Assembly (NCBI GenBank): GCA_947625045.1
Contig: CANQMW010000002.1
Coordinates: 1-64,000 of the forward strand
Length of the DNA stretch: 64,000 nucleotides
Direction: 5' to 3'
DNA from: an uncultured Oscillospiraceae bacterium
Lineage (GTDB): Bacteria > Bacillota > Clostridia > Oscillospirales > Oscillospiraceae
Shown here: one piece after another, positions 56,606-64,000 of the stretch
Position numbering within the stretch: position 1 is the stretch's first letter
How the letters are laid out: each line of letters begins with the position of its first letter
The notes under the pieces: model-generated
What the model saw: only the letters and a program-made list of their open reading frames with translations
Told to the model about the DNA's origin: nothing
The model's database searches: none
Translations under genes and position numbers: made by a program

Positions 56606-58225
56606 TTACCGCTTTCTGTATATCTCCGTTGTCACCGCCAGCACCGCGGCCAGGGTGACGGCCAGGGCCAGCCAGCGGAGGATATCCGTCTCATCCCCGG
56701 TCCGGGGAGCCGTCTGGCCGCCGGTGGGGGCCTGGGCCGGTCCCGTGGGGCCGTCCGCCGCCGGGATGGGCGCGCCGGGCGTCACTGTGGGGGCTGTGGA
56801 CATCTCAGTGGGGAAGAAAGGCGTTTCTGTGGCCGGAACCGGCGTAATGGTGGGGCCGAGCGTTGGCATATCGGTGGGAATTGGCGTCAAAGTGGGGGAT
56901 GTGGTCGGTTCCGGAGTCGGCACAGGTGTGTCGGTGGGGAGTGGGGCCGGTTTTATCGTTGGTATGGGCGTCATGGTGGGGGACACGGTTGGTTCTGTCT
57001 TGGGAATAGGCGTGTCGGTGGGGACCGGCGACGGTTCTGTGGTAGGAACGGGCGTGTCCGTGGGGACGGGCGTGTCCGTTGGCGTGTCGCTGGGCTCGGC
57101 GGTGTAGACCGGGTCCGGCGTCGGCGTATCGGTGGGCTCCGGCGTATCGGTGGGCTCCGGTGTATCGGAGGGCACCGGAGTATCGGAAGGCTCCGGCGTG
57201 GCGGGAATGATGGCCTCGAAGTCCAGCACGGGATAGCCGTTGTTCTGCCCGGTCGCGGCCTGGTAGAAGGCCTCGCTCAGCAGGGCGGGGAAGGGGGCGC
57301 TCTGCATCTGGACAGTGGGCGCGCCCGTGACCGTGCCGCCGTAGGCCCCCGCACCGGAAGCGGTCAGGGGGGCCGTCAGCTCCCCGTCATGCCAGACATT
57401 GCTGAAGCTGGAGCCGCCCGTCATGCCGGCGAAGGCTCCGGCGGTGTTGGCGCCGGTGACCATGCCCCCGGCGGCGTAGCTGTCCGTCACCTGGCTGTCG
57501 GCCAGGTACCCGGCGTAGCCGCCCAGGACGAGCCCGGCGTCGTTGCCGAAGACATAGGCGGTGGCGTAGCAGTTGGTGAGGGCGCCGCCGGTGAGATAGC
57601 CTATCGCGCCGCCCACATATACCTTGGCGCCGAAGGCCCCCGCCGCCCCCAGGGAGCCCCGGGCGGCGCACCGGTCCATGACGGTCCGGCCCTCCGCCCG
57701 TCCGGCGAGCACTCCGGCGGCCAGCACGCCGTCGGGGGAGGCCGCCCAGCTCCCGGCGGTGACGGTCCCGTCCACCGCCACGTTCAAAAGGGTAGTGTCC
57801 GTCATCCGGCCCGCCAGGCCGCCGGCGGCGGTCTGGCCCTGGGCGCTGACCGTGACGGCGAGGTGCAGGTTTTTGACCACCGCCCCCCGGAGGGCGGCGA
57901 ACAGCCCCGGCCCGGCGATGGCCAGCCCCTGTATGGTGTGCCCCTGGCCGTCAAAGATGCCCTGGAACGATTGGCTGCCGTCGGGGGTGTCCCGGCCGAT
58001 GGGGGCCAGGGCCCGGCCGGTCATGTCGATGTCCCCGGCCAGAAGCACAGTCCGGCCGGCATAGGTCTGCCCGGCGGATACGCTGTCGCTGAAGGCGGCC
58101 AGCGCCCCGGGCCCGTCGATGACCACCGGCCCCTCCGCCCCGTAGGCGGCGGGGAGCCAGGCGATCAGCAGCGATAACAAAAAGAGACCGGCTATACACC
58201 CGGTCACGATGCGACGTATTCTCAT
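56606..58225 (-). CDS. GLUG-type surface protein with Pro/Thr repeats and sortase-like signal
   Basis: The 539-residue protein has a signal peptide (residues 1-29), a beta-helical GLUG-like region (about 30-345; FQGIFDGQGHTIQGL, GGLAGRMTDTTLLNVAVDG, GGYAGYLADSQVTDSYA), a 120-residue low-complexity stretch of TDTP and PTPE units, and a C-terminus with APRTGDE, a hydrophobic helix and basic tail YRKR. That end resembles an LPxTG-type sortase signal, although Leu is replaced by Ala. It is probably a wall-anchored adhesin or matrix protein. Start ATG at 58225 has GAGGGG upstream. Confidence 0.82.
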   Translation of the reverse strand: MRIRRIVTGCIAGLFLLSLLIAWLPAAYGAEGPVVIDGPGALAAFSDSVSAGQTYAGRTVLLAGDIDMTGRALAPIGRDTPDGSQSFQGIFDGQGHTIQGLAIAGPGLFAALRGAVVKNLHLAVTVSAQGQTAAGGLAGRMTDTTLLNVAVDGTVTAGSWAASPDGVLAAGVLAGRAEGRTVMDRCAARGSLGAAGAFGAKVYVGGAIGYLTGGALTNCYATAYVFGNDAGLVLGGYAGYLADSQVTDSYAAGGMVTGANTAGAFAGMTGGSSFSNVWHDGELTAPLTASGAGAYGGTVTGAPTVQMQSAPFPALLSEAFYQAATGQNNGYPVLDFEAIIPATPEPSDTPVPSDTPEPTDTPEPTDTPTPDPVYTAEPSDTPTDTPVPTDTPVPTTEPSPVPTDTPIPKTEPTVSPTMTPIPTIKPAPLPTDTPVPTPEPTTSPTLTPIPTDMPTLGPTITPVPATETPFFPTEMSTAPTVTPGAPIPAADGPTGPAQAPTGGQTAPRTGDETDILRWLALAVTLAAVLAVTTEIYRKR

Positions 58226-58359: not shown

Positions 58360-59658
58360 TTATTTGTTTTCAAGAGCGCGGATGGCCCGGTCCCGGCGGA
58401 AGGCGAGGCACAGGACCACGCCCGCGAACCCCAGCAGACCCAGCAGCAGCGCCGCGCCGCTGCCCTTGCCGGAACCAACCAGACGGACCGCCCACGCGCC
58501 CGGGGCCAGCGACGCCATATAGGGCTCGAACACCCGGTCCACCGCCAGTCCGCCTAGAAAATATCCCAGAGGGATGGTGAAATACTGCAAACAGTTGCGC
58601 ACCGCGTAGACCCGGCCCTGGAGGGCGGCGGGGATGCGCAGGCGGAACAGCGCGCTCATGCAGGCGTTCATCAGCGGGATGGGCGCCCAGCCCAGAAAGG
58701 AGCCCAGACACCACGCCGCCGGGCCCCGGCCGAAGGCCAGGAGAAAATTCTCCGTGCCCAGGGAGATGAAGAGGCAAAGCCATATGGTCCGGACCCGGCT
58801 CCTGGGCGCGGGCAGGGCCGCCGCCAGAAGGCTCCCGGCCAGCATGGCCAGCCCCGCCGCGGAGCTCACCAGGCCCATGACACGCTCCCCGCCGCCGGCC
58901 CGGGACAGGAGCATGGCGGGAAAGGCGGCCTCGTACAGGGAGGATACCAGGTTGACCGCCGCCAGAAACAGGATCATATGGGCCAGGCCCGGCTCCCGGC
59001 GGAGATAGGCCAGTCCTTCGCCCGCCGTGCGCAGCAGGCCTTCATCCTGCATGCCGGGCGCCTCCGGCACCGGGGGGATACGGATAAAGAAGAGCAGGGC
59101 CAGCGCCGCCGCAGCGAAGGAGCCCAGGTCCAGGGCCAGCACGGCCCCCATGCCCCGGAGGCCCATCACCGCCGTGGTGAGAAGGGGCGTCAGGAGCGTG
59201 GTCACGGACCCGGACAGCTGGCTCAGCCCGCCGGCCCGCTGGTAGTATTTTTCCGGCAGCAGCAGCGTCACCGCCACCTCCGAGGCGGGCTGCTGGACGG
59301 AGTTCATCAGCCCTGTCAGGGCGTTGATGAGGTAGAGATGACCCACCCGAAGCTGCCCGGCGTGGAGAAGCACCGCCACCGCCAGGGTGCCTGCCGCGGC
59401 CAGGCCGTCACAGCAGAGCATGGTGCGTTTTTTGTCCCACCGGTCGCTGAGGGCGCCGGCGAAGACGCTGACCAGCACGTAGGGCGTGTAGGAGCACACC
59501 ATCAGCAGGGCGGTGCGCAGCGCCGAGCCGTGTTGACCGTAGGACCAGAGAACCAGGGCATACGCCGTCATGGCGCTGCCCAGACCGGAGAGGGCCTGGG
59601 TGCTCCACAGCAGAAGAAAGGGCCCCATGTCGTGAAGCCCTTGTTTTATTTTGTTCAT
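58360..59658 (-). CDS. MFS family exporter (MefA-like)
   Basis: I start at 59658 (MNKIKQGLHDMGPFLLLW), with AAGGAGC 8 bases upstream, rather than the track start. The 432-residue protein has 12 membrane helices and SALRTALLMVCSYTPYVLVSVFAGALSDRWDKKRTML, the loop motif of the MFS_3/MefA-like group (quoted as its parts SYTPYVLVSVFAG and LSDRWDKKRTM). Such proteins export macrolides and other drugs. The leader region contains a 13-codon ORF and a hairpin covering the ribosome binding site, the layout of translation attenuation. It follows the cardiolipin synthase gene. Confidence 0.88.
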   Translation of the reverse strand: MNKIKQGLHDMGPFLLLWSTQALSGLGSAMTAYALVLWSYGQHGSALRTALLMVCSYTPYVLVSVFAGALSDRWDKKRTMLCCDGLAAAGTLAVAVLLHAGQLRVGHLYLINALTGLMNSVQQPASEVAVTLLLPEKYYQRAGGLSQLSGSVTTLLTPLLTTAVMGLRGMGAVLALDLGSFAAAALALLFFIRIPPVPEAPGMQDEGLLRTAGEGLAYLRREPGLAHMILFLAAVNLVSSLYEAAFPAMLLSRAGGGERVMGLVSSAAGLAMLAGSLLAAALPAPRSRVRTIWLCLFISLGTENFLLAFGRGPAAWCLGSFLGWAPIPLMNACMSALFRLRIPAALQGRVYAVRNCLQYFTIPLGYFLGGLAVDRVFEPYMASLAPGAWAVRLVGSGKGSGAALLLGLLGFAGVVLCLAFRRDRAIRALENK

Positions 59659-59660
59659 TT

Positions 59661-59704
59661 GCTTTGCTCCTTTTTTGATGTTTGTGTCGGTCAAAGAGCA
59701 AAGC
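59661..59704 (-). promoter_or_regulatory. RBS-sequestering hairpin before the MFS gene
   Basis: On the minus strand GCTTTGCTC (59704-59696) pairs perfectly with GAGCAAAGC (59669-59661). The second arm contains part of the GGAG ribosome binding site of the MFS gene. The first arm is inside the last codons of a 13-codon leader ORF. A ribosome held on the leader would break the hairpin and expose the site. Confidence 0.7.
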
Positions 59705-59732
59705 CGGCAGGATAGGAGACATCCTGCTCCAT
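59691..59732 (-). CDS. Leader peptide MEQDVSYPAGFAL (13 codons)
   Basis: A complete small ORF runs from ATG at 59732 to TGA at 59691. GGATAGGGG lies 5 bases upstream of the ATG as a ribosome binding site. The codons for Phe-Ala-Leu form the first arm of the hairpin that hides the MFS gene's ribosome binding site. It is far too short for the ORF track. Drug-induced ribosome stalling within it would induce the exporter; this is inferred from layout and known erm, cat and related systems. Confidence 0.6.
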   Translation of the reverse strand: MEQDVSYPAGFAL

Positions 59733-59765
59733 GCGGCCCCTATCCTATGCGGCTTCGCATGGAGC
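59705..59765 (-). promoter_or_regulatory. Alternative stem-loops in the MFS leader
   Basis: Further pairs can form here: GCTCCATGCG with CGCATGGAGC (59765-59756 and 59735-59726), AGGATAGG with CCTATCCT (59746-59739 and 59716-59709), and GCAGGA with TCCTGC around 59707-59727. The first covers the leader's ATG. Because they share bases they cannot all form together, which is the pattern of an attenuator with exclusive states. Confidence 0.6.
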
Positions 59766-59808
59766 AAAAACGATGGCAAGCGGTAAAACGATCATATCCT
59801 GTCCTTTC

Positions 59809-61377
59809 TCACATGAGAGGGGCGGCGATCTTCAAGAGCGCCGCGGCCAGGCGGGTGGAGAGCTTCATGTTCTTCACCGTCTCCTCCGTCACAAGGCGGC
59901 ACTGGGGGAAGGTGTCCTGAAAGTCCCCCATGATGTCTTTCAGGACCGGGGACTTGTAGAGGTAGGCCGCGCACTCGAAGTTGAGGTAGAGGCTCCGGTA
60001 GTCCAAATTAATGGTGCCAACCACGGCGCAGGTGTCATCGGCCAGGAACACCTTGGAGTGGATGAACCCGGGGGCGTATTCGTATATCTTCACCCCCGCC
60101 TCCGTCAGGGCCTTATAGTGGCCCTTTGCCAGGAGGTTGGCGTACTTCTTGTCCGGGATGCCCGGCAGGATGATGCGCACGTCCACGCCCCGGCGGGCGG
60201 CGAAGGTGAGGGCCGTGGCCATCTCCCCGTCCAGGATGAGATAGGGGGTCATGATGTACACATACCGCCGGGCGGTGTTGAGGATGTGCAGATAGAACAT
60301 CTCCCCGGTGCGCTCGTCGTCCATGGGGCTGTCCCCGTAGGGGATGACGTAGCCCAGGCTGCCGTCGGAGGCGGGGCCGGGGTCATTGAGGTACGGCGCG
60401 TATTCCTGCTGCTTCTCGCCGGCGTTCCATATCCGCAGGAACATGAGCGTCATGCTGCGCACCGCGTCGCCGGTGAGCATGATGCCCTCGTCCTTCCAGT
60501 GGCCGAACTTCTCCCGGCGGTTGATGTACTCGTCCGCCAGGTTCACCCCGCCGGTGAAGCCCACCTTCCCGTCTATCACCAATATCTTCCGGTGGTCCCG
60601 GTTGTTGTAGCTGGTGGAGATGAAGGGCCGGATGGGGGCGAAGACCTTGCACTGGATGCCAAGGGCCCGCAGGGTCTTGGGGTAGCTGGCCGGCAGGCGC
60701 AGCAGGGAGCAGGTGCCGTCATAGAGGACCCGCACGTCCACGCCCTGGCGTACCTTGCGCTTCAGGATGTCCAGTACGGCGTCCCACATCTCCCCCTCCT
60801 CCATGATGAAGTACTCCAGGAAGATGAACTTCTCCGCCTTCTCCAGCTCCCGCAGGAGGGCGGCATATTTGTCCTCCCCCTGGGGGTAGTACTCGGCGGC
60901 GGTGTTTTCATATACGGCGAAGCCGTTGCGCTTGGATGCGTACACGGCGAGGGGATAGAGGTCCGGCTCGGACTCTTTAAGCCGCTCCATGAGTTCTTTT
61001 TGCTGGGGCATATAGGGGGCGCTGGCTTCCACCTGGGCCCGGAAGATGCGCTGCTCTGCCCGGTGGCCAAGATCAAAGGTGATAAAAAGATAAAGGAGCA
61101 CACCGAACACCGGCACCAGCGCGATGATGACGCACCAGCTCAGCTTGACGCTGGGGTCAGAGCCGGTGTTCAGCAGATACACCAAAAACAGCCCCGCCAG
61201 CAGGTCTACTGCCCAGGTCAGATAGAAGCTGGACCGCTGCAGCCGGAAGAAGAGCAGGAAGATGAAGAGGAACTGCATCAGCAGCAGGATGGCCGCCACG
61301 GCGCCCCGGCCGAACACGATGCTCAAAAACCCCCGCCGGGACCGAGTGTTCCGGGAGTTATTTTCTTTTTCCGGCAT
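59809..61377 (-). CDS. cls: Cardiolipin synthase (phospholipase D family)
   Basis: I start at 61377 (MPEKENNSRNT), with AGGGGG 9 bases upstream; the track ORF start at 61998 is a long shadow extension. The 522-residue protein has two or three N-terminal membrane helices (AVAAILLLMQFLFIFLLFF, FGVLLYLFITF) and two HKD motifs: NNRDHRKILVIDGKVGFTGG and FIHSKVFLADDTCAVVGTINLD. It joins two phosphatidylglycerols into cardiolipin at the membrane. It is followed on the same strand by the MFS gene. Confidence 0.94.
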   Translation of the reverse strand: MPEKENNSRNTRSRRGFLSIVFGRGAVAAILLLMQFLFIFLLFFRLQRSSFYLTWAVDLLAGLFLVYLLNTGSDPSVKLSWCVIIALVPVFGVLLYLFITFDLGHRAEQRIFRAQVEASAPYMPQQKELMERLKESEPDLYPLAVYASKRNGFAVYENTAAEYYPQGEDKYAALLRELEKAEKFIFLEYFIMEEGEMWDAVLDILKRKVRQGVDVRVLYDGTCSLLRLPASYPKTLRALGIQCKVFAPIRPFISTSYNNRDHRKILVIDGKVGFTGGVNLADEYINRREKFGHWKDEGIMLTGDAVRSMTLMFLRIWNAGEKQQEYAPYLNDPGPASDGSLGYVIPYGDSPMDDERTGEMFYLHILNTARRYVYIMTPYLILDGEMATALTFAARRGVDVRIILPGIPDKKYANLLAKGHYKALTEAGVKIYEYAPGFIHSKVFLADDTCAVVGTINLDYRSLYLNFECAAYLYKSPVLKDIMGDFQDTFPQCRLVTEETVKNMKLSTRLAAALLKIAAPLM

Positions 61378-61530: not shown

Positions 61531-61551
61531 TTGTTTGAAGGAGGCAGGACC

Positions 61552-61911
61552 ATGGCGGAGAACGATGTGGAGCGGTGCGGTTTTCTGTTCGTCCATGAGG
61601 CCGTGGTGGAGCAGGTGTTGTCCGAGATGCCGGCCGACGAAAAGCTCTACGACCTGGCGGAGCTTTTCAAGGTCTTCGGCGACTCCACCCGCATCAAAAT
61701 TCTGTACGCCCTGTTCGAGGCGGAGCTTTGCGTGTGCGACATTGCCCAGCTTCTGGGCCTGACCCAGTCCGCCGTGAGCCACCAGCTGCGGGTGTTGAAG
61801 GCGGGGCGGCTGGTGAAGCCCCGGAAGGACGGCAAGACGGTATTCTACTCCCTGGCCGATGACCATGTGCGGACCCTCATCGCCCAGGGCATGGAACATA
61901 TCGAGGAATAA
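61552..61911 (+). CDS. ArsR/SmtB family metal-sensing repressor (CadC-like)
   Basis: I start at 61552 (MAENDVERCGFLF), with GGAGG 8 bases upstream. The 119-residue winged-helix protein has ELCVCDIAQLLGLTQSAVSHQLRVL and an N-terminal cysteine in ERCGFLFVHEAV, matching the ligand layout of CadC-like sensors for Cd, Pb or Zn. The apo form should bind the 61507 operator. The metal-efflux genes follow, beyond repeat copy G. Confidence 0.92.
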   Translation: MAENDVERCGFLFVHEAVVEQVLSEMPADEKLYDLAELFKVFGDSTRIKILYALFEAELCVCDIAQLLGLTQSAVSHQLRVLKAGRLVKPRKDGKTVFYSLADDHVRTLIAQGMEHIEE

Positions 61912-61923
61912 TGCCCTCCCAAA

Positions 61924-62049
61924 AGCCTCCCCTGTGCAAGGGGAGGTGGGCCGCCGTAAGGCGGCTCGGAGGGGTTGTAAACGTTCGTGACGCAACAATC
62001 CCTCAGTCAGCGCTTACGCGCTGCCAGCTCCCTTTGCACAAGGGAGCCT
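61924..62049 (+). repeat. MITE-like palindromic element, copy G
   Basis: This 126-bp copy is in the same orientation as copies A and C, with GCCGCCGTAAGGCGGC and CAGCGCTTACGCGCTG stem-loops. It lies between the ArsR regulator and the HMA gene inside what is otherwise one metal-resistance unit, so read-through must pass its hairpins. Confidence 0.88.
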
Positions 62050-62084
62050 AAGAGGAATTAATTAAATGAGAGGAGATATACATC

Positions 62085-62306
62085 ATGAAAAAGTCATTCA
62101 AGCTGGTGGACCTGGACTGCGCCAACTGCGCCCGGAAGATGGAGGACGCCATCAAGAAGCTGGACGGCGTCAACGACGCCACCGTCAGCTTCCTCACCCA
62201 GAAGATGACCGTGGACGCGGACGACGGCCGCTTCGACGACATCATGAAGCAGGTGGTCAAGTGCTGCAAGCGGGTGGAGCCCGACTGTGAGATCGTGCTG
62301 AAGTGA
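62085..62306 (+). CDS. Stand-alone heavy-metal-associated (HMA) domain protein
   Basis: The 73-residue protein is a single HMA domain, beginning KKSFKLVDLDCANCARKMED with the metal-binding CANC, then VSFLTQKMTVDADDG and a C-terminal CCKRVEPDCEIVLK with further cysteines. It is likely the detached N-terminal metal-binding domain, or a chaperone, of the ATPase encoded 13 bases downstream. GAGAGGAG lies 10 bases before the ATG. Confidence 0.92.
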   Translation: MKKSFKLVDLDCANCARKMEDAIKKLDGVNDATVSFLTQKMTVDADDGRFDDIMKQVVKCCKRVEPDCEIVLK

Positions 62307-62319
62307 GGAGGCGGGGCCC

Positions 62320-64000
62320 ATGACCCGGAAGGAGAAAAAGGCCCTGGCCCGCATCCTCGCGGCCGGGGCGCTGCTCATCGCGGTGAGCATCTGGAAGCCG
62401 GAGGGCTATATCGCCCTGGCGGCGTATCTGGTGCCCTACGCCGTGGTGGGCTGGGACGTGCTGTGGAAGGCGGTGCGGAACATCGCCCACGGGCAGGTGT
62501 TCGACGAGAACTTCCTCATGGCCCTGGCCACCGTGGGGGCCCTGGCCCTGGGGGAGTATTCCGAGGCCGTGGGCGTCATGCTCTTCTACCAGGTGGGCGA
62601 GCTGTTCCAGACCCACGCCGTGGGCCAGAGCCGCAAGTCCATCGCCGCCCTCATGGACATCCGCCCGGATACCGCGACCGTAGAGCGGGACGGGGCGTTC
62701 GTGGAGGCGGACCCGGAAGAGGTGGCCGTGGGCGACGTCATCCAGGTGAAGCCGGGGGAGAAGGTGCCCCTGGACGGGGTGGTGCTCACCGGCACGTCCA
62801 CATTGGACACCGCCGCCCTCACCGGCGAGAGCGTGCCCCGGCGCATAGCCGAGGGGGACGAGATCGTCTCCGGGTGCGTGAACCTGTCGGGCGTGCTCAC
62901 CATCCGGGTGACCAAGCCCTTCGGGGAGAGCACCGTGGCGAAGATATTGGAGCTGGTGGAGAACGCCGCCAGCAAGAAGGCCCAGGCGGAGAACTTCATC
63001 ACCCGCTTCGCCCGGGTATACACCCCCGCGGTGGTCATCGGCGCGGTGTGCCTGGCCCTGATCCCGCCGCTGTTCACAGGCGGATGGGCCACCTGGGTCC
63101 ACCGGGCGCTCATCTTCCTGGTCATCAGCTGCCCCTGCGCGCTGGTCATCTCCATCCCCCTGGCCTTCTTCGGGGGCATCGGCGGGGCGTCCCGCCGGGG
63201 CATCCTGGTGAAGGGAGGCAACTATCTGGAAAAGCTGGCCCAGGTGAAGGTGGCCGTGTTCGACAAGACCGGCACCCTCACCAAGGGCGAATTCGAGGTG
63301 GCCGCCGTCCATCCGGCGGCGGGCGTGACGGAGGATATGCTCTTGGAGTCCGCCGCCCTCGCGGAGCAGTACTCCACCCACCCCATCGCCCAGTCCCTCC
63401 TGCGGGCCTATGGCAAGGCCCCGGACCCGGCCCGGGCCGCTGACGTGTCAGAGGTCGCCGGCCAGGGCGTCACCGCCCTGGTGGACGGGGAGAAGGTGGC
63501 CGCCGGCAACCGGCGGCTCATGCAGACCCAGGGCCTGGACGCCCCCGAGGACGGCTGCGCCGGCACGGTGGTCCATGTGGCCCGGGCGGGGCAGTATATG
63601 GGCCATATCCTCATCGCCGACGGGGTGAAAGAGACCACCCCCGCCGCCATCCGGGAGCTGAAAGAGCGGGGCATCCGCACCGTCATGCTCACCGGCGACG
63701 CCCAGGCCGTGGGCGACGCGGTAGGGAAGGAATTGGGCCTGGACGAGGTCCACGGCGGGCTCCTGCCTGGGGACAAGGTGGACCGGCTGGAGGCCATCCT
63801 GGCCCAAAAGGACCCCAAAAGCGCCCTGGCCTATGTGGGCGACGGGGTGAACGACGCGCCGGTCTTAAGCCGGGCGGACGTGGGCGTGGCCATGGGAGCC
63901 ATGGGCTCCGACGCCGCCTTGGAGGCGGCGGACGTGGTGCTCATGGACGACGACCTGGGCAAGCTGGTCCAGGCCATGGACGTGGCCCGCAAGTGCAGCC
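62320..64000 (+). CDS. Heavy-metal P1B-type ATPase (CadA/ZntA-like), partial
   Basis: This gene is not in the ORF track because it has no stop before the window end. It starts at ATG 62320 (MTRKEKKALARILAAGALL), after GAGGAGGCGGGG, and reads 560 residues to base 64000. Motifs in order are AALTGESVP, the metal-site CPC in LVISCPCALVISIPL, the phosphorylation site VFDKTGTLTKGE, the HP motif STHPIAQSLL and VGDGVNDAPVLSRADVG. The CPC motif and the ArsR regulator point to Cd2+, Zn2+ or Pb2+ export. It has no N-terminal HMA domain; that function is supplied by the preceding gene. Confidence 0.93.
   Translation, partial: MTRKEKKALARILAAGALLIAVSIWKPEGYIALAAYLVPYAVVGWDVLWKAVRNIAHGQVFDENFLMALATVGALALGEYSEAVGVMLFYQVGELFQTHAVGQSRKSIAALMDIRPDTATVERDGAFVEADPEEVAVGDVIQVKPGEKVPLDGVVLTGTSTLDTAALTGESVPRRIAEGDEIVSGCVNLSGVLTIRVTKPFGESTVAKILELVENAASKKAQAENFITRFARVYTPAVVIGAVCLALIPPLFTGGWATWVHRALIFLVISCPCALVISIPLAFFGGIGGASRRGILVKGGNYLEKLAQVKVAVFDKTGTLTKGEFEVAAVHPAAGVTEDMLLESAALAEQYSTHPIAQSLLRAYGKAPDPARAADVSEVAGQGVTALVDGEKVAAGNRRLMQTQGLDAPEDGCAGTVVHVARAGQYMGHILIADGVKETTPAAIRELKERGIRTVMLTGDAQAVGDAVGKELGLDEVHGGLLPGDKVDRLEAILAQKDPKSALAYVGDGVNDAPVLSRADVGVAMGAMGSDAALEAADVVLMDDDLGKLVQAMDVARKCS

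Follow-up and report, generated by a model that had tools for sequence, protein, structure and literature searches.

A probable drug-inducible translation attenuator with a conserved leader and five RNA arms upstream of a Mef-like exporter gene in Oscillospiraceae

The short gap upstream of an MFS exporter gene in an uncultured member of the Oscillospiraceae very probably holds a translation attenuator that works by ribosome stalling. This class was proposed in an earlier note on the window (the whole 64,000-nt stretch of DNA analyzed), and it agrees with what was found: three mutually exclusive and covarying helices, one of which hides the Shine-Dalgarno sequence (SD) of the exporter gene, in a leader free of a terminator. 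We further consider it highly likely that the attenuator responds to a drug, and that a ribosome stalled on a first leader ORF (leader 1) switches the RNA from a helix termed D:E to one termed B:D. The interpretation given in the earlier note is thus partly supported as a whole. The ORF that it took for the leader peptide, MEQDVSYPAGFAL, is shared with just one 94%-identical relative, and it is the ORF upstream of this one that constitutes the conserved leader.

Architecture of the exporter gap

The exporter is related to the Mef-type pumps (TIGR00900, Mef(A)) and scores below every named family cut-off; against the NCBIfam model of the Mef(A) macrolide pump (NF000245) it reaches 94.8 bits, short of the cut-off of 675. 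Upstream and on the same strand, across a gap of ~150 nt, lies cls, the gene for a cardiolipin synthase (Table 1). This gene adjoins the exporter only in the closest relatives, the other homologues having a different neighbor, which indicates that the switch travels with the exporter. A search of 59600-60100 yielded no intrinsic terminator of the kind that would mark a transcription attenuator of the mef/mel or vmlR type, and no promoter match was found in the cls-exporter gap or the end of cls. As to the wider surroundings, a protein carrying a long repeat rich in Thr and Pro (TDTPEPTDTPVP...) is encoded at 56606-58225 on the minus strand, adjoining the exporter, and ORF translations of 61531-64000 give an ArsR-type regulator and a small heavy-metal-associated protein, followed at 62320 by a heavy-metal P-type ATPase, likely together a metal-resistance operon.

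Table 1. Features of the exporter gap and its flanks, in positions of the window
Feature	Position	Strand	Remarks
MFS exporter	58360..59658	-	432 aa, Mef-like
Arm E AAGGAGCAAAGC	59661..59672	-	exporter SD and spacer; pairs with 59693-59704
ORF 2 MEQDVSYPAGFAL-stop	59691..59732	-	not conserved
Arm D CCTATCCT-GC-CGGCTTTGC	59698..59716	-	pairs with B (on) or E (off)
Arm C CGCATGGAGCA	59725..59735	-	pairs with arm A
Arm B GCGAAGCCG-CAT-AGGATAGG	59739..59758	-	holds the stop of leader 1; pairs with arm D
Leader ORF 1 MIVLPLAIVFAPCEAA-stop	59745..59795	-	conserved leader; present with SD in all 16 genus homologues
Arm A TGCTCCATGCG	59756..59766	-	within leader ORF 1; perfect 11-bp inverted repeat with arm C
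SD of leader ORF 1, AAAGGA	59802..59807	-	from sequence; relatives have an SD at the same position
cls, cardiolipin synthase	59809..61377	-	TIGR04265, 335.9 bits (cut-off 290)
Leader MKLCIATAPCRV			named alongside the window's leader

The gap folds at -57.9 kcal/mol, as compared with -38.9 +/- 3.9 for shuffled sequences (z -4.9; none of 200 shuffles as low), and in the free RNA of the window the exporter SD has an unpaired probability of 0.004. Every stem that the earlier note had described was recovered. The last codons of its ORF (ATGGAGCAGGATGTCTCCTATCCTGCCGGCTTTGCTCTTTGA, 59732-59691 on the minus strand, with 32 nt between the end of its stop and the exporter ATG at 59658) pair at 59693-59704 with 59661-59672, over 12 nt at 92% and including a perfect core of 9 bp, with AAGGAG lying in the 3' arm of this stem. 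A second stem of 11 bp (59756-59766/59725-59735) covers the ATG of the same ORF, and overlapping stems are formed by 59750-59758/59698-59706 (9 nt, 89%) and 59739-59746/59709-59716 (8 bp). The region assigned to the element, 59658-59765, is too short, omitting the better-placed upstream ORF at 59745-59795.

These stems resolve into five arms and three helices, A:C, B:D, and D:E, the last formed by the 3' half of arm D with the arm that carries the exporter SD. The helices are mutually exclusive, as A and B overlap and D is unable to pair with B and E together; the SD is paired in the default fold and freed in an alternative one. In leaders of the L069 type, in which the arms read, 5' to 3', GCTCCATGCA (A), GCAAGGTTTGAGGATA (B), TGCATGGAGC (C), TATCCTCGGACTTTGC (D), and AAAGGAGCAAAGTC (E), the B:D helix spans ~16 bp; in the window it comprises 9 and 8 pairs about a small internal loop.

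Comparison of leaders upstream of homologous MFS genes, a check that the earlier note had put forward, uncovered compensatory changes in all three helices, as measured against shuffle controls that leave shared ancestry in. Across ten genus leaders, A:C and D:E together have 93.5% of cells paired (34-41% in slid controls) and five pairs changed on both sides, a number reached by 1 of 500 shuffles. For B:D the same ten leaders give 91.2% paired and four pairs changed on both sides, and in 58 leaders nine of its pairs show such changes, with 45 both-side-changed cells vs 21 in shuffles. Arms also form better duplexes with their own partner than with that of other genomes (z of -12.3 for B:D, -9.1 for D:E, and -7.5 for A:C, values that relatedness inflates). 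Evidence for covariation of A:C comes from the genus set, where three pairs have changes in both partners, and from a few variants, because arms A and C were kept constant in the pattern scan. At locus L201, A and C change jointly (TTTCCATGC / GTATGGAA) and the leader peptide becomes MKFCIAVFPCKA.

The loops of the switch carry inserted sequence in a few loci. A short palindromic repeat, AGCTGACGGGAGGCGAACACACGTCAGCT, lies in the B-C or C-D loop of L004, L005, and L015 with the arms intact, and occurs in seven copies in 4 of the 35 genus genomes, being absent from that of the window; longer inserts in L012 and L013 have ends related to it.

Leader ORF 1 and the predicted stall

Leader ORF 1, a short ORF that precedes the regulated gene and has an SD of its own, starts 13 nt past the cls stop codon. 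Among the genus homologues it encodes, e.g. MPTLPLAIGGAPCKV-stop, MFLAIAFAPCKV-stop, and MLALDAAPCRV-stop. The leader consensus is M-x-L-[C/A]-I-[A/V/D/G]-x-A-P-C-[K/R]-[V/A]-stop. We know of no cat or fexA/cmlA leader that these peptides match. In 61 of 80 genome loci the leader has exactly 12 codons before the stop. In one of the genus homologues (L016) the usual stop is lost and reading continues for seven codons. The N-terminal codons fall outside every arm. There, Leu at codon -5, upstream of arm A, is kept in 66 of the 80 leaders through six different codons, exceeding every nucleotide shuffle, and codon -4 is Cys or Ala in 64, again beyond nucleotide shuffles. Codon -4 is sometimes Met or Ile instead, and in view of so loose a motif a strict arrest peptide is not evident.

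The recurrence of Leu, Cys, and Ile codons would also suit an amino-acid attenuator, in which a shortage of cysteine or of a branched-chain amino acid stalls leader 1 and turns on a metabolite exporter. We regard this as very improbable: the Cys at codon -4 is missing from 39 of the 80 leaders, CatA, Cfr, and Vat-like genes also lie behind related switches (see below), and the exporter most resembles drug pumps of the Mef type.

In the drug-responsive mechanism that we favor, the mRNA would adopt A:C and D:E when ribosomes move freely along leader 1 or are absent from it, and the exporter SD would be hidden. A drug would halt the ribosome early in leader 1, with an Ile codon in the P site (usually codon 5, and codon 8 in the window); the footprint of the stalled ribosome would cover arm A and leave arm B free, B would then pair with D, and release of E with its SD would allow the exporter to be made. 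Folding of the 80 leaders with a ribosome footprint at each position agrees in part with this sequence of events. The SD is most exposed (0.39 vs 0.14 without a ribosome) when codon -3, the Ile that is normally codon 5, occupies the P site, and a footprint placed there reaches as far as the CCAT of arm A, immediately ahead of arm B. For the window, Ile8 is the one codon of leader 1 at which the energy needed to open the SD dips deeply, from 12.4 to 5.6 kcal/mol. An equilibrium model nevertheless keeps the SD mostly paired when the ribosome sits at Ile8 (~1% open), because the D:E stem of the window is unusually strong; folding during transcription, or an additional event on ORF 2, may help it to open. 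Stalling on leader 1 is itself inferred. Chloramphenicol halts ribosomes on the cat-86 leader once five residues have been joined, codon 6 then being in the A site, and the stall predicted here has the same geometry. Together with the CatA, Cfr, and Vat-like targets described below, this likeness suggests that the inducer is likely a drug acting at the peptidyl-transferase center, i.e. a phenicol, lincosamide, pleuromutilin, streptogramin A, or similar compound.

Footprint folding, which the earlier note had advised for its own ORF (here ORF 2), showed that in the window a ribosome at codons 7-14 opens the SD (0.21-0.36) more than one at any position of leader 1. A drug-stalled ribosome on ORF 2 might open D:E directly, or might act second, once a stall on leader 1 has made ORF 2 accessible, in a two-step cascade like that proposed for ermA; an SD-like stretch does precede the ATG of arm C in 67 of 80 relatives. 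In the window, the ribosome binding site that the note had assigned to the ORF is present as a putative one, ATAGGGG-CCGC-ATG, of mediocre quality. We nonetheless judge a role for ORF 2 of either type unlikely. Its ATG is a consequence of the pairing between arms C and A, being the complement of CCAT, and formation of B:D would place the ORF 2 ribosome binding site inside a helix. The peptide is identical in the 94% relative, reads MERYS-stop or MEQDS-stop in 79%-identical relatives, and elsewhere in the genus gives way to MEL-stop, VEP-stop, or unrelated longer peptides. Among the 80 leaders the ORF from arm C has 2-6 codons in 35 and stops short of arm D in 39, and is otherwise unconserved in length, frame, and residues. 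As a candidate for the conserved leader ORF 2 was rejected, as it varies freely across this set; we take it to be a by-product of arm C.

Distribution and downstream genes

The earlier note had named homologous exporters lacking both leader and arms as evidence that would speak against it. A DNA search of 35 genus genomes followed by tblastn provided 16 exporter homologues, that of the window included, which are 52-100% identical; leader 1 and arms A-E precede all 16, most with different upstream neighbors. A separate family sample contained 12 homologues, 11 of them full length, and 10 of these 11 carry the switch. The sole full-length exception (L217) lies directly behind a tRNA-like stretch, a gene for 5S rRNA, and a terminator (~330 bases upstream of position 876), and possibly represents a constitutive allele.

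Covariance model R1 detected the switch in 34 of 401 family genomes and 23 of 106 genera, and model R2 in 26 of 391 genomes of the class and 5 of 399 of the phylum. At least 119 stretches of GTDB species genomes contain the exact core pattern, where ~0.06 would be expected by chance (estimated from 24 base equivalents and 31 gap lengths over 264 Gb on both strands). Among the matches listed, most carriers belong to the Oscillospiraceae, Lachnospiraceae, and other Clostridia of the gut and rumen; the spirochaete Breznakiella homolactica also has the switch, and Ruminococcus callidus ATCC 27760 (L063) is an example of a carrier in culture. A BLAST search of plasmids with two leaders gave no match; viral contigs gave two, each before the same exporter.

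The MFS exporter is the next gene after the switch in 145 of 175 loci, and most of the other targets counter ribosome drugs. These include CatA-like acetyltransferases at six loci (L056, L057, L109, L200, L201, and L202; leaders e.g. MKRGLDAAPCKA-stop), SpoU-type rRNA methyltransferases at three (L061, L178, and L207), MATE pumps at two (L142 and L152), and Cfr at L205 (621 bits, cut-off 550). At L210 a CD3324-family gene is followed by a Vat-like acetyltransferase, and at L058 CD3324 stands alone; the occurrence of these small proteins after switch-like leaders may hint at a role for CD3324. Covariance matches at E values of 1e-5 to 1e-3 are partly due to chance, as with L060, which falls within a coding gene, and probably also with L203. 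For the Cfr, Vat-type, GNAT, radical SAM, and L061/L207 methyltransferase cases we therefore rely both on the score and on arms visible immediately ahead of the gene.

At the two MATE loci translation passes through arm A in a different frame, with the start codon 22 nt from the arm rather than the usual 23. It is thus the spacing that is kept, and the A-P-C at the C-terminus of the peptide mirrors arm A, a conclusion that the joint change of arms at L201 supports. Codons fixed by the RNA and a change of frame could also suggest that the arms form a ligand riboswitch or a protein site, with leader 1 a mere by-product of RNA conservation. This possibility seems to us slight, given that N-terminal codons outside the arms keep Leu and Cys/Ala beyond nucleotide shuffles, that leader length is so widely the same, and that the MATE start-to-arm distance holds to within 1 nt despite the change of frame. 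A translated leader on which a ribosome would stall remains the preferred reading. To a broader, still tentative proposal we give a little less than even weight: that these loci form a single portable attenuator family, constant in its arms and start-to-arm spacing but exchanging both the frame of the leader and the gene behind it (exporter, CatA, MATE, Cfr, rRNA methyltransferase, or CD3324-Vat), providing anaerobic gut bacteria with a common sensor of peptidyl-transferase-center drugs.

Relation to known attenuators

Attenuation of this class has been known for a long time (PMC5418344, PMC8274638, PMC10201436), and the particular switch is without a match in Rfam or in the literature found. 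An Rfam covariance search of the window and seven related loci returned sub-threshold chance matches only, and no earlier description of the leader peptide or element was found in the openly accessible journal literature searched. If the proposed mechanism is true, many unstudied exporters of gut and rumen Clostridia would be inducible antibiotic-resistance genes that are silent in ordinary tests. One recognizable RNA would mark such exporters and offer a search handle for new resistance genes, and the leader would serve as a ready test for which ribosome drugs cells sense.

In the ermC, ermA, and ermB attenuators, a small leader ORF and exclusive hairpins keep the SD of the resistance gene hidden until a ribosome stalls (PMC5418344, PMC8274638). 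The present switch shares this plan, and ermA has two leaders, but arms, leader sequence, and target differ here, the predicted stall is at about codon 5, and no Erm gene was found behind the switch. The mef/mel(msrD) system likewise places a leader peptide before a Mef-type MFS pump, and is distinguished by its transcription attenuation (PMC4335068), no terminator being present here. The clostridial cplR switch, also a uORF device for resistance to ribosome drugs (PMC10201436), is set apart by its three-codon MR[I/M] uORF, its terminator, and its ABC-F target. Finally, the cat and fexA/cmlA phenicol systems control an acetyltransferase or an exporter by translation attenuation (PMC5418344); what differs here is the five-arm layout, in which helix B:D encloses arm C and which is common to several unrelated gene families.
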